This document shows, in pieces, positions 34,888 through 41,970 of a stretch of 64,000 nucleotides of DNA; the first letter of the stretch is position 1, and each line of letters opens with the position of its first letter. The DNA is from Desulfuromonadales bacterium (GTDB lineage Bacteria; Desulfobacterota; Desulfuromonadia; Desulfuromonadales; BM103): the NCBI GenBank assembly GCA_030145205.1, contig JAQYVZ010000017.1:1-64000 (forward strand), written 5' to 3'. Both the position numbers and the translations under genes were made by a program. Below the pieces are notes generated by a model. It searched no databases and was not told the origin of the DNA. It saw nothing but the letters and a program-made list of their open reading frames with translations.

Positions 34888-37254
34888 TTACGGTGCCCCT
34901 ATAGCGTTTTGCAGCTCTGTTTGGATGTCGGCAAAAATCGTTTCAAGGTGGTGGCGGATCTCCTGACTGGTGTCCATCTTCAGGAGTTCACTGAAGCAGT
35001 CAGTTGCCTGTTCGTGAGAGATGCTGCGGATGATGGCTTTGACCCGAGGGATGAAGGGTGCGGGCATGGAAAATTCGCGCAGCCCCATGCCGATCAGTGG
35101 CAGCAGGGTGATTGGGTCGGTGGCCATTTCTCCGCAGAGGCAGACACCTTTGTGCGCTTTATTTGCAGCAGTGCAGATATCGCTGAGAACGCTCAGAACG
35201 GCAGGATGCAGCGGGTCGTAGTGCTTGCTGACCAACGGATTGTTGCGATCTGCGGCCATCATGTACTGGACAAGATCATTGGTTCCGAGGGAAAAGAAGT
35301 CGACCTCCCGCGCCAGGTTGGGAACCAGTCGAGCCGCCGCCGGAACCTCGATCATGACTCCGAGTGGCAGGTCGTTCCGGTAGGGAATTCCCTCCTTGTC
35401 GAGAGTCTCCTTCGATTCTTCGATGATCTCCTTGCAGGCCCGGATCTCTTCCATGGAGGAGATCATCGGAAACAGCAGCCTGATGTCGCCATGCTGCGCT
35501 GCCATGAGAATCGCCTCGATCTGGGTCCTGAAGATCTCCTGGTTGTCAAGAGAGACCCTGACGGAGCGCCAGCCCATAAACGGGTTGTCTTCATGTGGAT
35601 GGGTGAAGTAGGGCAGTCCCTTGTCGCCGCCGATGTCCAGGGTTCGGATCGTAACCGGTTCGCCGGGAAAACCTTCGACAACACGGCGATATAGCTCGTA
35701 TTGCTCCTGCCTGCCAGGAAACTCCCGACGCGCCATGTAGGGGAATTCGGTGCGGTACAATCCGACCCCTCGGGCACCGAAGCGCTGCGCGGTGCTGATG
35801 TCGCTGATCAGGCCGATGTTCGCTCGCAGCGTCACCTCCAGACCATCCGTTGTACGTGCTTCGATACCCCGGAATTCGTCAAGCTTGCAGATCTGGCGAG
35901 TCTGATCCTCAAGTAGACGTTGGTACTCGTCACGAATTGTTGGGGTCGGCTTGATGTAGATGCGCCCTGAATTCGCATCAAGGATGATGTCGTCTTCCGG
36001 GGCAATGCTCTTGATTGCGCTGCGGACATTTACCAGGGCCGGAATTCCCATCGACTTGGCCATAATCACGGCATGGGAGTGGCGTTCGCCGGTTTCCGTA
36101 ATGATGCCGAGAATCATCTCGGGATCAAGGGTGGCCATGTCTGACGGGAGGATCTTGTGGGCGACGAGGATGCCGGGGTGTTTTAGACGGATTGGCTGTT
36201 TTGGCGCATCGCCAACCAGGTTAGCCAGCAGGCGTCTGCCGATATCCTCCATATCTGCTGCGCGTTCGCGCAGGTAGGGGTCTTCCATCTGCTTGAAGGC
36301 GTCAATGTATTCGGCAACGACTTTCTCCAGGGCGTAGACAGCGCAGTGCCCCCGGTTGATTTCATCTTTCAGCTTTGCACTGACACTGCGGTCCTCAAGG
36401 ATCATCAGGTGTGAGTGAAAGATGGCGGCATCATGCTCGGTCAACCGTTTGGCAACCTGTTTTTCCAGGTAGAGCGTCTGAATGCGGGTCCGCTTAAGGG
36501 CGGCATCCAGCTTAGCAAGCTCCTGTTCAATGTCGACATCTTCTTCGTGCAGGATGTCGCTGAAGCCGAGGCGCTCTTCAAGGATTGCGGCTGGCCCCAG
36601 GGCAACGCCTGGATAGGCAACTTTTCCACGCAGGCTGTTCTGGATGTCCGGTTGGTTCTGCTCGTCGCGGTTGGCCAGGGTCTGGCGTGCTGAGGCCAGT
36701 TCCTCGGCGGTTTTGAGGGCTTCCTTCTCCTTCATGTGAATCGAATCGAGAAGGCGGGCATTGACGACAATCGAGGAGATCTGAAAGGCAATGGTGGAGA
36801 GTGCGCTGATTTCGTCCTTGCTGAATTGGCGCACTTTCTTCGTCTGTAGCGCGATAACGCCAAGCGGGTTGTCGCGGTCGAACAATGGGATGCCGAGGAA
36901 GGAATGGAAGCGCTCTTCGCCAGTTTCCTTGAAGTAGCGGAAGCTGGGGTGCTTCTCCGGTTCCTCAATGGCGATGGCATGACGGTTCTGGGCCGCCATG
37001 CCGGTGAGTCCTTCGCCGATCTGCATGGTGACTTTGCCGATGGCACGACGTGAGAGGCCTTTAGTGGCCCGCAGGCGAAGAGTTTTCTGGTCGCTGTCAA
37101 GCAGGTAGATGGAGCAGACGTCGGAACGCATGCGGCGCGCAACCAAATTGACGACATTGCTAAGCATCTCGTCAAGGTCGTGCGATTGCAGGATCAGCAG
37201 ACTGATGTCTTTCAGGGTGGTGATCCCGATTTGTGAGCTGTCTGACTTAGACAT
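34888..37254 (-). CDS. ptsP: GAF-containing phosphoenolpyruvate-protein phosphotransferase (EI-Ntr)
   Basis: A 788-residue protein. Residues 1-170 are a GAF domain (LKDISLLILQSHDLDEMLSN start). From about 205 it is a full enzyme I: phospho-His site ERHSHAVIMAKSMGIPA (His394), then the PEP-binding barrel with RTLDIGGDKGLP, GWRSVRVSLD, LPLGVMIEVPAAA, FFSLGTNDLVQYMMAADRNN and GVCLCGEMATDP. It takes phosphate from PEP and starts the nitrogen-type PTS, which in proteobacteria signals to sigma-54 genes and potassium transport. HPr and EIIA genes are not in the window. The start has only a weak Shine-Dalgarno. It lies downstream of the candidate small RNA terminator and a sigma-54 activator gene. 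Confidence 0.95.
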   Translation of the reverse strand: MSKSDSSQIGITTLKDISLLILQSHDLDEMLSNVVNLVARRMRSDVCSIYLLDSDQKTLRLRATKGLSRRAIGKVTMQIGEGLTGMAAQNRHAIAIEEPEKHPSFRYFKETGEERFHSFLGIPLFDRDNPLGVIALQTKKVRQFSKDEISALSTIAFQISSIVVNARLLDSIHMKEKEALKTAEELASARQTLANRDEQNQPDIQNSLRGKVAYPGVALGPAAILEERLGFSDILHEEDVDIEQELAKLDAALKRTRIQTLYLEKQVAKRLTEHDAAIFHSHLMILEDRSVSAKLKDEINRGHCAVYALEKVVAEYIDAFKQMEDPYLRERAADMEDIGRRLLANLVGDAPKQPIRLKHPGILVAHKILPSDMATLDPEMILGIITETGERHSHAVIMAKSMGIPALVNVRSAIKSIAPEDDIILDANSGRIYIKPTPTIRDEYQRLLEDQTRQICKLDEFRGIEARTTDGLEVTLRANIGLISDISTAQRFGARGVGLYRTEFPYMARREFPGRQEQYELYRRVVEGFPGEPVTIRTLDIGGDKGLPYFTHPHEDNPFMGWRSVRVSLDNQEIFRTQIEAILMAAQHGDIRLLFPMISSMEEIRACKEIIEESKETLDKEGIPYRNDLPLGVMIEVPAAARLVPNLAREVDFFSLGTNDLVQYMMAADRNNPLVSKHYDPLHPAVLSVLSDICTAANKAHKGVCLCGEMATDPITLLPLIGMGLREFSMPAPFIPRVKAIIRSISHEQATDCFSELLKMDTSQEIRHHLETIFADIQTELQNAIGAP

Positions 37255-37340: not shown

Positions 37341-37381
37341 AAAAAAAGCGCCGCCCGGGGGAGAGAGTTCCCTGGCGGCGC
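37341..37381 (-). terminator. Intrinsic terminator of the candidate sigma-54-dependent small RNA
   Basis: Read on the minus strand, an 8-bp GC stem (GCGCCGCC with GGCGGCGC) with an inner GGGA/TCCC pairing is followed by TTTTTTT. It lies about 100 bp before ptsP and about 300 bp after the preceding coding sequence on that strand, too far to be a simple gene terminator. Confidence 0.85.
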
Positions 37382-37441
37382 GAAACAAGGGAGCAGGATT
37401 TCCTCTGTGGGGTTGGAAGCTGCTGTTCCCTAGACAGTTGC
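37341..37441 (-). ncRNA. Candidate ~100-nt sigma-54-dependent small RNA
   Basis: A perfect -24/-12 promoter at 37452-37468 predicts a start at about 37441, and the strong intrinsic terminator ends at 37341. No credible ORF lies between. The RNA would begin with a small hairpin (CTGT-CTAGGGA-ACAG, an exposed GGA in the loop), a C-rich single-stranded stretch (CTTCCAACCCCACAG), then GAGGAAATCC and the terminator hairpin with a pyrimidine-rich loop (CTCTCTCCCCC). Three GGA triplets (AGGGAA, GAGGAA, AGGGAA) could suggest CsrA binding; the C-rich patches could pair with Shine-Dalgarno sequences. Both are speculation. Two activator-type palindromes lie 122 and 186 bp upstream. Confidence 0.5.
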
Positions 37442-37451
37442 TCGTATATAC

Positions 37452-37468
37452 AGCAAGGTATGTGCCAA
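37452..37468 (-). promoter_or_regulatory. Sigma-54 (-24/-12) promoter
   Basis: The minus strand reads TTGGCACATACCTTGCT. It has the invariant GG and GC exactly 10 bp apart and matches the YTGGCAC-N5-TTGCW consensus throughout. It lies in a gene-free 432-bp region between ptsP and the activator gene, pointing towards the terminator at 37341. Confidence 0.8.
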
Positions 37469-37554: not shown

Positions 37555-37572
37555 TGTGCCAGGTGTGGCACG
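37555..37572. promoter_or_regulatory. Upstream activator palindrome, copy 1
   Basis: TGTGCC-AGGTGT-GGCACG, centred about 122 bp upstream of the predicted sigma-54 start. Same arms and 6-nt spacer as copies at 37619 and 40003, which flank the activator gene at 37687-40002. Confidence 0.65.
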
Positions 37573-37618: not shown

Positions 37619-37636
37619 TGTGCCGTTTGTGGCACA
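37619..37636. promoter_or_regulatory. Upstream activator palindrome, copy 2
   Basis: TGTGCC-GTTTGT-GGCACA, with the pairing extended to GCTGTGCC/GGCACAGC. It is 64 bp from copy 1, about six helical turns, which would place both sites on one face of the DNA, as is usual for enhancer-binding proteins. Confidence 0.65.
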
Positions 37637-37686: not shown

Positions 37687-40002
37687 CTAATTTTTTGATT
37701 TAAAATCGGCCCCGCGGAGATTGTAACGCGTCAGTAGTCGATAGAAAGTGCGTCTTGGAATGCCAGCCTGACGGGCGGCTGCGGTCACGTTCCCCTTGTT
37801 TTCTACGAGGTAGTCAGTCATCAGTTTCTTTTCAACCTGACCGACATGCTTCTGACGGGCCCCGTGAAAGCCAATTGTGCTGGTGCTGTCCGGCAGAGTT
37901 GAAGCCAGTTCTGAGAAGATCACCGGCAGGTTTTCGAGGTGGATGATCTCATCGTGGGTTAAAACGGCGGCACGCTCGATGATATTCTGGAGTTCCCGAA
38001 TATTGCCGGGCCAGTGGTAACAATGCAGAGCCTGCAAAGCTTTTTCCTCAATGCCGAGCAGGGTTTTGTTCACCCGCTTGCTGGCTTTATCCAGAAAGAC
38101 CTGAACCAGTTCGTTGACGGATTCCATGCGGTCGCGCAGCGGCGGTATGGTGATAGTGAAGACGTTCAGGCGGAAGAACAGGTCTTGCCGGAACCAGCTC
38201 TCCTCCACGCCCCTTTCAAGGTTTTTGTTTGTTGCTGCAATCAGTCTGACATCTACCTGAATGGATGTGTTGCTGCCAACCCGGCGAATTTCACCGGAGT
38301 CCAGGACGCGCAGCAGTTCTGCCTGCAGCTTCGGCGTAATGTCGCCGATTTCGTCGAGGAAGATGGTGCCCCCGTTGGCGGCCTCGAACAGGCCTTTTTT
38401 GTCAGAAACAGCGCCACTGAAAGAGCCCTTCTGGTGACCGAACAGCTCGCTTTCGAGAAGGCTGTCCGTCAGGGTGGTGCAGTTGATGGTCACCAGCGGT
38501 TTGTCGGCACGTTGGCTTTGCTGGTGAATGGCCCGTGCTGTCAGCTCCTTGCCGGTGCCGCTTTCGCCGCGCAACAAGACGGTTGTCTGGGTCGGTCCAA
38601 CTTGTTGAATCAGTTTTAGGACGCCAAGGGTTCGTGTGTCCTGCCCCACAATGTCGGAGTCACCGAATTGTTCGGCCAGGGCTCTCTGGGCCAGCTCGTA
38701 TTTCTGGGTCAATTTGACCTGGTCCTCTTCAAGCCGTTTGAGGGAATACGGCAGGCACATATCCGGCTCAGCAAGGTCTTGAAAGACGGCAACGGCGTGC
38801 TCACGGCAGGTTTCGTAGCCGCAGGCGCCACAGTCAAGTTCGTCGGCTGGTTCGTATTTGTTGGTGGAGCGTAAAATGTGCCGCAGTCGTTCACCGCTCG
38901 GTACGTCAGGGCGCTTCGCCTTGCTGGAGAAGGTCCGGGTAAAGTCGGGCAGGGGGGCGGCTTGCTCGTAGCAAGGTTCTGTTTTGTAGTACAGATTATG
39001 GTTGTTCTGGTAATCGATGATCAGGTTGCGCTTCGAGAATGTGGTTAGACGATTGTTCTTGTCGGGGCCTCCGATGCAGCCACCGTTGCAGAAGCGGATG
39101 TCAACGACCCGGGGGGTAATCCGTCCGGCCGCCAAGTCTTTGATGACTTCAAGAATATTCTGCTCGCCTTCGGCTGTAATAAAGTCCGGATTCGTGATGT
39201 CGTGCTGGATGTCAAATGCCTGGAAGGGGCCGCCGGAGATGGCAAAGAGACGCCCACGGTCCGGCTGCCGACCGCTTAGGGGTGATTCGCCGAGGCGCTT
39301 CAGGTTGAGACTTTTGTCGCGAAACATCTGCGATAATTCACTGTAGGTAATGACGCAGTCCACGTCCATGCGGGTCTGGTCGGCGGTTATTTCAAACTTT
39401 CCGGCAACGCATGAGCTGATGTAGACGACCGGGGTGTCCTGGCCGACGCGCTGCTTGATAAAGCGTCCGATCGCAATCATGGGAGAGACAACGCCAGCAA
39501 GGTTTCTCAGCAGCTGTGGGTAATGGCGCTCTATCAGGTCGAGGATCGTTGGGCAGTGACTGGTAATCAGTGGGCGCTTGTCGGCGTTGCCGATGGCCTG
39601 GTTGTACATGTCCGTCAGGAGGTCGACGCCGACAGAACCCTCATGAACTTCTGAGAAACCAAGCCGTTTCAGACCGGTCACCAGCTGGCCGGCCTTAACG
39701 TCATGAAAGGAGGCTGGGTAGGAGCAACCCAAAACGGCAATCGGAGGTTTGGGGCCAGAGAGCAGCCGCCGGCATTCTACGATACATTCAGTGATCACTT
39801 TGGCGTGCTGAGAGCAGACGCGCACGCATTTACCGCAGCCGATGCAGCGTTCCGGAATGACCTCCGCGTAGTCGCGAAGAACCCGGATTGCCTTGACCGG
39901 GCAGTTGCGGATGCAGGCGTAGCATTTACGGCATGCCGCCTTGTTGGTTTTGATCGGAATGATGGCGAGGCCTCCTGGGGTGACGCTGTGATGGAGGCGC
40001 AT
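37687..40002 (-). CDS. Sigma-54 activator with ferredoxin and [FeFe]-hydrogenase-like sensor domains
   Basis: Up to 771 residues. Two 4Fe-4S ferredoxin motifs (Cys24/27/30/34 and Cys53/56/59/63) open the protein. Residues 85-340 resemble the [FeFe]-hydrogenase large-subunit C-terminal domain with all four H-cluster Cys ligands: TSHCP (Cys150), SSCVAGK (Cys198), [11 protein letters not shown] (Cys305, Cys309); the catalytic proton-relay Cys of TSCCP is His. A further four-Cys site ([10 protein letters not shown], Cys391/394/399 plus Cys416) precedes the AAA+ domain: Walker [15 protein letters not shown] at the sigma-54 loop (usually GAFTGA), Walker [13 protein letters not shown] Fis-type helix-turn-helix ends it ([20 protein letters not shown]). 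I infer an H2- or redox-sensing enhancer-binding protein. The start is uncertain: the ATG at 40002 lacks a ribosome-binding site, see 39971. Confidence 0.85.
39971..39976 (-). promoter_or_regulatory. Strong Shine-Dalgarno pointing to an ATC/ATT start
   Basis: AGGAGG on the minus strand lies 7 nt before an in-frame ATC (39963) and 10 nt before an ATT (39960), codons 14-15 of the long reading. No ATG, GTG or TTG lies at that distance. Since the long-form ATG at 40002 abuts the operator palindrome and would lie at the -10 box, translation may begin here with a rare codon. Confidence 0.35.
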
Positions 40003-40025
40003 TGTGCCATTTGTGGCACGCTAGG

Positions 40026-40029
<4 letters not shown>
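40001..40029 (-). promoter_or_regulatory. Putative sigma-70 promoter of the activator gene with an internal operator
   Basis: On the minus strand TTGACC (40029-40024) and CACAAT (40006-40001) are 17 bp apart. The spacer and -10 contain the third TGTGCC-ATTTGT-GGCACG palindrome (40003-40020), so binding there would block polymerase: autorepression by the activator is the simple reading. Confidence 0.5.
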
Positions 40030-41001
<972 letters not shown>

Positions 41002-41009
<8 letters not shown>

Positions 41010-41970
41010 CGCAAACCCTCCAGCAGCGCACCAGATGACCGTATTCAACCTCCTGAAGCGGTGGCAGCTGACCTTCGCAGGGGGCAAAGGCACGCGGACA
41101 GCGCTCCAGGAAGGCGCAGCCGTCAGGCAGGTTGCCTGGCGCTGGCACCGTTCCTTGAATGGGAGACAGGCGTTGACGTTTGCTGCCGATTTTCGGAATA
41201 CACTCGAGCAGCCCCTGGGTGTAGGGGTGAAGCGGGTTGGCAAAAAGTTTTCTGACCGGAGCCACTTCGAGCAGGCGCCCGGCATACATGATGGCGACCC
41301 GGTCGGCGGATCGAGCAACAATGCCAAGATCGTGGGTGATCAACAGGGCAGCCATGTTACGTTCTTCCTTGAAACGCGACAGCAGGTCGAGGATTTGTGC
41401 CTGAATGGTCACGTCGAGAGCTGTGGTTGGCTCGTCAGCGATCAACAGTTGCGGGTCGCAGGAAAGGGCCATGGCGATCATCACCCGTTGGCGCATTCCC
41501 CCTGATAACTGGTGAGGAAAGTCTTGCAGGCGCTCGTGGGCTGCAGGAATGCCGACCTGGTTCAGGAGCTCGGCGGCCATTTTTAAAGCCACTGGCCGGC
41601 TTTTACCTTTATGCAGCTGAATTGTTTCTGCAATCTGGTCGCCGATGCGGAACACCGGATTGAGCGAGGTCATTGGCTCCTGGAAGATCATGCTGATGCG
41701 GTTGCCCCGGATGCGTCGCATTTCGTCAAGTGGCATACGCAGCAGGTCCTGGTCGTTAAAGCGGATTTCTCCCTCGACAACGCGCCCCGGCTCGGGAATC
41801 AGTCGCAGCAGGGAGAGGGCGGTCATCGATTTTCCGCAACCGGATTCGCCAACCAGGGCCAGTGTTTCGCCGGCGTCAATCTGCAAATCGATGCCAGCGA
41901 TTGCCTTGATCAAGCCATCGCGCGTAAAGAAAAATGTTTTCAGATTGTTGACTTCAAGCAGTGGCGGCAT
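41002..41970 (-). CDS. Oligopeptide/dipeptide ABC transporter ATP-binding protein, DppD/OppD type
   Basis: A 322-residue ATPase with Walker [14 protein letters not shown]-loop [14 protein letters not shown], signature [15 protein letters not shown], Walker [13 protein letters not shown] and switch His [13 protein letters not shown]. The C-terminal oligopeptide-transporter extension has the Cys-rich [17 protein letters not shown]. DppD and DppF normally energise two membrane permeases fed by a periplasmic binding protein; none is encoded here, as a PHP phosphoesterase gene is divergent on the other side. The permeases must be elsewhere or be lost. Confidence 0.9.

Follow-up and report, generated by a model that had tools for sequence, protein, structure and literature searches.

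Several small RNAs are transcribed from sigma-54 promoters under an enhancer-binding protein, among them Qrr with LuxO, CrcZ with CbrB and GlmY with GlrR. The locus presented here resembles these systems in its -24/-12 promoter at the right distance from the RNA, in putative distal enhancer sites upstream, and in a linked AAA+ activator with a GAFTGA-type loop, whose output would be a small RNA. The RNA is a different one, and in place of a receiver domain the activator carries its own hydrogenase-like iron-sulfur sensor. The kinds of sensor domain found in it (Fer4, Fe_hyd_lg_C and FeS) also occur in enhancer-binding proteins of Clostridiales (PMC6615313); that paper mentions no small RNA, whereas the activator described here adjoins an RNA gene.

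A second kind of system acts on mRNAs of the tricarboxylic acid (TCA) cycle. The Neisseria RNAs NmsR_A and NmsR_B (NgncR_162/163; PMC5362039, PMC9973317) repress gltA, sucC, sdhC and fumC via UC-rich anti-Shine-Dalgarno regions (PMC5362039). Like these RNAs, ours has a conserved single-stranded C/U stretch complementary to the Shine-Dalgarno sequences of several TCA genes, gltA included. The NmsR RNAs come from sibling genes with -35/-10 promoters, whereas here a single gene has a sigma-54 promoter and a dedicated activator; the seed here lies in the terminator loop, and no sequence relation between the two has been shown. The alphaproteobacterial alpha-r14 RNA (RF02344) also has C/U-rich loops resembling anti-Shine-Dalgarno sequences, one of them in a terminator hairpin, but these are of the CUCCUCCUCCC type. 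It is the best weak resemblance in Rfam, but its 21.2 bits fall far short of the gathering score, 58.8, and membership was rejected. In Geobacter the same pathway is lowered by a protein: the repressor HgtR, induced by hydrogen, reduces citrate synthase and other TCA enzymes (PMC7894505, describing Ueki and Lovley 2010). That input and output are the ones we propose for the RNA, whose family matched none of 141 genomes from the sister orders of the class (covariance model, E 1e-4).

Both kinds, the sigma-54 activator with its small RNA and the anti-Shine-Dalgarno repressor, are known; the small RNA family is new and so is the combination. Our main reading, to which we give a probability of roughly two in three, is a redox- or H2-responsive unit in which the activator would switch on a sigma-54-dependent small RNA that represses TCA-cycle mRNAs by pairing with their Shine-Dalgarno sequences.

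The small RNA gene and its family

The window (the whole stretch of 64,000 nucleotides that was analysed) had been given an initial annotation of a stand-alone, sigma-54-dependent RNA of about 100 nt, with a consensus promoter whose GG and GC are 10 bp apart, a strong intrinsic terminator about 100 bp further on and no ORF between them. This observation is confirmed, and the features are collected in Table 1.

Table 1. Features of the activator-RNA locus in the window
Feature	Coordinates	Strand	Evidence
ptsP (GAF and PEP-utilising domains), downstream neighbour, outside the unit	34888..37254	-	Pfam; replaced in two lineages
Small RNA gene, predicted transcript ~101 nt, predicted start 37441	37341..37441	-	Covariance model R1: 37440-37341, E 3e-21; folding z -2.8
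T run of intrinsic terminator, seven T	37341..37347	-	Directly 3' of hairpin
Terminator hairpin of RNA	37348..37381	-	Stem covaries, loop conserved
Predicted pairing seed CUCUCUCC, terminator loop	37360..37367	-	CUCUCUCC in 50/55, CUCUCC in 54/55 family members
Sigma-54 (-24/-12) promoter TTGGCACATACCTTGCT	37452..37468	-	Perfect match; GG-N10-GC in 54/55 family loci
Proximal activator palindrome CGTGCCACACCTGGCACA	37555..37572	-	Predicted, sequence pattern
Distal activator palindrome TGTGCCACAAACGGCACA, ~180-195 bp before start	37619..37636	-	Predicted, sequence pattern
Sigma-54 activator (enhancer-binding protein)	37687..40002	-	Pfam; PDB matches to [FeFe] hydrogenases; RNA in 81/81 genomes with activator
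Palindrome CGTGCCACAAATGGCACA upstream of activator gene	40003..40020	-	Similar site in 9/12 genomes

The promoter is the only site in the window within one mismatch of the consensus, with exactly 10 bp from GG to GC. Since 1.67 matches with one mismatch are expected in 64 kb, a single match is not significant by itself and the weight rests on conservation, GG-N10-GC being kept before the RNA in all but one of the family loci. The terminator has GC-rich arms (GCGCCGCC...GGCGGCGC) followed by the T run; a simple terminator scan missed it because that scan allows loops of at most 8 bases. Between promoter and terminator no conserved ORF is apparent, and the alignment shows indels that break the frames. 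The RNA folds better than its own shuffles.

When the intergenic region was searched as DNA against 40 genomes, 30 of them gave matches. In an alignment of 20 sequences, conservation is high at -24/-12, dips between promoter and start, and then continues through the RNA to the T run. The covariance model matches 90 of the 136 genomes of the order, once per genome except for two with a weak second match; three weak genomes (G062, G082 and G096) were set aside, giving a family of 87, and named members include Desulfuromonas, Geothermobacter and Geoalkalibacter records. Very weak model matches (those three, G105 C77 and the second match in G048) were taken as other terminators with other neighbours and rejected. 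Matches in Stenotrophomonas, Lachnospiraceae and Oscillospiraceae, from a pattern scan of named genomes, were taken as chance or unrelated.

Both sides have changed in 13 of 20 base pairs (57 matches), a number reached by none of 500 shuffles; the alignment was fitted to the model and so leans towards structure, and slid controls fall to 2-6 pairs. The first stem is GGGGA/UCCCC in some members and AGGGA/UCCCU in others, its sequence varying while pairing is kept, and the terminator stem likewise varies with pairing kept in all members. Conservation is poor in the middle of the RNA. The terminator loop is nearly invariant (Table 1), and the first four bases of CUCUCC are predicted to be unpaired in 49 of 55 members. 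The initial annotation could match the RNA to no known family, which still holds: Rfam, searched at the gathering score and also permissively, gave no family, and we found no description of the RNA in the literature. Judged by conservation and covariation, it is a real, so far unnamed small RNA family of the order, and the proposal of a stand-alone sigma-54-dependent RNA is strongly supported by these together with the conserved promoter and activator sites.

The same evidence bears on the idea that only a promoter and a terminator are conserved, with no functional RNA, for example to insulate ptsP from the activator gene. Intergenic terminators are common, but here enhancers, promoter and first stem are conserved too, the loop is invariant while its stem covaries, and the GAFTGA motif of the activator is lost where the RNA is absent (below); we find this idea hardly credible.

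The initial annotation also left two mechanisms side by side, CsrA titration and Shine-Dalgarno pairing, and placed a GGA in a hairpin loop. The placement was wrong, as the GGA triplets are base-paired and only one of the 55 family members is predicted to have a GGA that is fully unpaired. A sponge of the CsrB/RsmY type would require several unpaired, conserved GGA. CsrA exists in related Geobacter (PMC11934962) and GGA triplets are present in the RNA, but the mid-hairpin GGA is not conserved across the family and the part that is conserved is the C/U loop; we rejected titration as very improbable. Pairing, the other half of the suggestion, gains from the invariant CUCUCUCC loop and its complement at TCA-cycle gene starts.

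The linked activator and its putative sites

Downstream of the activator gene, the RNA follows after about 190-430 bp and is itself usually followed by ptsP 66-301 bp further on. It is found in every activator-bearing genome (Table 1) and in 6 of the 55 genomes without the activator, while 49 of the 136 have neither (Fisher 1e-30, uncorrected for phylogeny). It was initially described as lying between the activator and ptsP, and of these two neighbours only the first is constant: family f18 and genus g7 keep activator and RNA, ptsP being replaced by YebC-RuvC-RuvA-like or DedA-like genes (by eye). This bears on a further explanation, in which the RNA serves ptsP as a 5' leader or attenuator and its terminator governs read-through. 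Its position upstream of ptsP on the same strand in most genomes would suit such a role, but with ptsP not directly downstream in f18 and g7, and with the terminator stem kept in all members, we rejected it as improbable. On the evidence of co-occurrence, the locus is instead a two-gene regulatory unit of activator and RNA, and the adjacency of ptsP is incidental.

Natural losses support this unit. No RNA is present in family f4, where the activator homologue (40-43% identical) directly adjoins ptsP; this protein retains its sensor cysteines and helix-turn-helix, but the GAFTGA loop, the part in contact with sigma-54, has been lost. G031 has lost activator, palindromes and promoter alike, and its RNA has an altered seed. 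In family f8 (G059, G082, G083, G084 and G096) the whole unit is missing and an ABC-transporter gene runs almost directly into ptsP.

Some further loci depart from the usual arrangement. Homologues of the activator directly upstream of ptsP that lack GAFTGA and retain sensor and helix-turn-helix (L146-L151, in G024, G117, G118, G121, G119 and G114) are perhaps now sigma-54-independent regulators. The RNA is present without a detected activator in G103, G104, G028, G134 and G135. Among named organisms, Geothermobacter hydrogeniphilus HR-1 shows this combination of RNA and no detected activator. Two of these are Geothermobacter-type loci (L061/L152, in G103 and G104) where the RNA is kept and no close activator was found; G103 also keeps promoter and palindrome, and a different activator may have taken over the RNA in this pair. 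In the window, two oligopeptide-type ABC-transporter ATPase genes (40026-41970) precede the activator, as in several relatives, and the same genes directly precede ptsP where the activator-RNA unit is missing.

Upstream of the sigma-54 promoter, loci with the activator carry TGTGYCA-N4-TGRCACA palindromes, usually two or three per locus and often near -230, -197 and -118 to -132, which we regard as candidate activator sites. Three of four activator-less loci checked have none better than chance, a three-mismatch site in G134 being counted as chance. A like palindrome lies 37-115 bp before the first conserved residues of the activator in 9 of 12 genomes, so that CGTGCCACAAATGGCACA is a probable autoregulatory site. 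In a scan of 12 genomes with a one-mismatch pattern, 23 of 30 palindromes fell inside the RNA-activator locus, and the other 7 equal the count for the reversed control. Because sites elsewhere are at chance level, the activator seems dedicated: as far as that pattern can resolve, it would control the RNA and its own gene and nothing else.

By Pfam the activator combines ferredoxin-like clusters, Fe_hyd_lg_C and FeS domains with an AAA+ sigma-54 domain, in which the GAFTGA-type loop reads GSFSGA, and a Fis-type helix-turn-helix; among proteins of solved structure it matches [FeFe] hydrogenases best. The window protein has the sensor cysteines in TSHCP, SSC and FCNGGC, and aligned relatives keep them with small variations around. 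We take these four cysteines (TSxCP, L2 and CxGGC motifs) to be the ligands of the H-cluster cubane. In place of the TSCCP cysteine that transfers protons in [FeFe] hydrogenase, the window activator and 15 aligned relatives have His. With this residue replaced, the domain more probably senses redox state, H2 or a related ligand than acts as an enzyme; catalysis appears unlikely, sensing possible, and a link of the RNA to H2 through this domain plausible.

The start of the activator gene deserves a remark of its own. Homologues begin about 14 residues inside the ATG-initiated frame (window 39940-40002), where a good AGGAGG precedes ATC-ATT, so the gene may in fact begin at a rare codon, AUC or AUU. 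Its ATG, at 40002, directly adjoins the palindrome.

Seed complements at TCA-cycle gene starts

The complement of the terminator loop is GGAGAGAG, and candidate targets were sought in four family genomes with the fixed pattern GGAGAGAG-N2-8-ATG. This pattern occurs at 22, 31, 19 and 17 sites, against 4, 8, 2 and 7 for the reversed pattern. Orthologues with such a start in several genomes are mostly TCA enzymes and cytochromes: citrate synthase and malate dehydrogenase (4/4 each), monomeric isocitrate dehydrogenase (3/4), aconitase B, class I fumarase and a DUF1451 protein (2/4 each), and two small cytochromes (3/4 each), one recognized by Pfam and the other from CxxCH motifs. TCA genes are in excess among the sites, with hypergeometric probabilities of 1e-4 to 3e-7 per genome, assuming 20 TCA genes in 3300 and our own count of real ORFs.

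GGAGAGA(G) precedes gltA in 19 of 19 RNA-bearing genomes and mdh in 17 of the 19; in the RNA-less genomes outside genus g31 it precedes neither gene (0/8 for each). These genome counts, like the others given here, are uncorrected for phylogeny. Where icd lies upstream of mdh it has GGAGAGA in all 16 RNA-bearing genomes. These starts could nevertheless be strong ribosome-binding sites inherited within the class, the same RNA and activator having other mRNAs as their main targets. Genus g31, which has lost activator and RNA, keeps the motif before gltA (2/2) and mdh (2/2), the motif is common to cytochromes and other genes, sister-order gltA often has GGAGAG, and icd has GGAGAGA in 2 of 3 scorable sister-order genomes and 1 of 2 g31 genomes; from the icd distribution, part of the motif is older than the RNA or independent of it. 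Against other main targets stands the change that accompanies the RNA: in RNA-bearing genomes the mdh Shine-Dalgarno goes from an AGGAGG type to GGAGAGA(G) and gltA gains a second GA, whereas family f4 has neither RNA nor motif. Nor is GGAGAG general near gene starts, occurring at none of the 41 genes of the window. We judge this alternative rather unlikely and retain TCA-cycle mRNAs as the predicted main targets.

Predicted duplexes of the RNA with these targets are stronger than with all 41 window genes, but since the targets were chosen by seed complement, the energies show only the size of the gap and are not independent evidence. Hfq was found in all 14 genomes checked.

Proposed circuit and other C-rich loops

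Under the main reading, the enhancer-binding protein, with its [FeFe]-hydrogenase-like iron-sulfur sensor, would bind two or three palindromic sites located some 110-230 bp upstream, together with a site before its own gene, and drive sigma-54 transcription of the ~100-nt RNA. The RNA, probably with Hfq, would expose the loop CUCUCUCC for pairing with the GGAGAGA(G) Shine-Dalgarno of citrate synthase, malate dehydrogenase, isocitrate dehydrogenase, fumarase and aconitase mRNAs, and with that of some periplasmic cytochrome mRNAs, so that their translation would be blocked once a reduced state or H2 switches the sensor. We infer the direction of regulation from known analogues, the Neisseria NmsR RNAs, which make translational repression the likely outcome. 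As the loop matches ribosome-binding sites of citric-acid-cycle genes, the RNA probably turns that pathway down, with the electron supply of the cell as the likely cue.

A wider claim is that the hydrogenase-derived sensor and sigma-54 activator read H2 or the reduced electron pool and control a single small RNA that shuts off acetate oxidation by the TCA cycle throughout the order, where the Geobacter sister group uses HgtR instead; we put this forward tentatively, at somewhat below even odds. If true, the RNA, with H2 or redox state as its input and an HgtR-like output, would be a parallel solution, a hydrogenase-like domain would be an unusual sensor for a small RNA circuit, and the family would bring an activator and a promoter of its own, an evolutionary record and a predicted regulon. 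The host bacteria have an acetate-oxidising TCA cycle that powers their reduction of metals and sulfur, and our literature search found no described small RNA of such a kind in them; the proposal makes it testable how they lower acetate oxidation in the presence of abundant H2 or other electron donors.

Terminators with the CUCUCUCC loop were also looked for in RNA-less genomes, and G059 and G060 gave no clear replacement RNA. Three loci outside the family have similar loops. In G062, whose genus lost the main RNA, a terminator with the same loop (GGAACUCUCUCCCC) lies between porin-like and multihaem-cytochrome-like genes (L094:2954-3047). In G082 (L099:2997-3065) and G096 (L098:1448-1520), where the main RNA is absent, two similar hairpins, their loops reading CUCUCUC(C) and CUCCUCC, end in a T run behind genes resembling lactate-utilisation iron-sulfur proteins (by eye), and are possibly a second C-rich-loop RNA or a 3' UTR.
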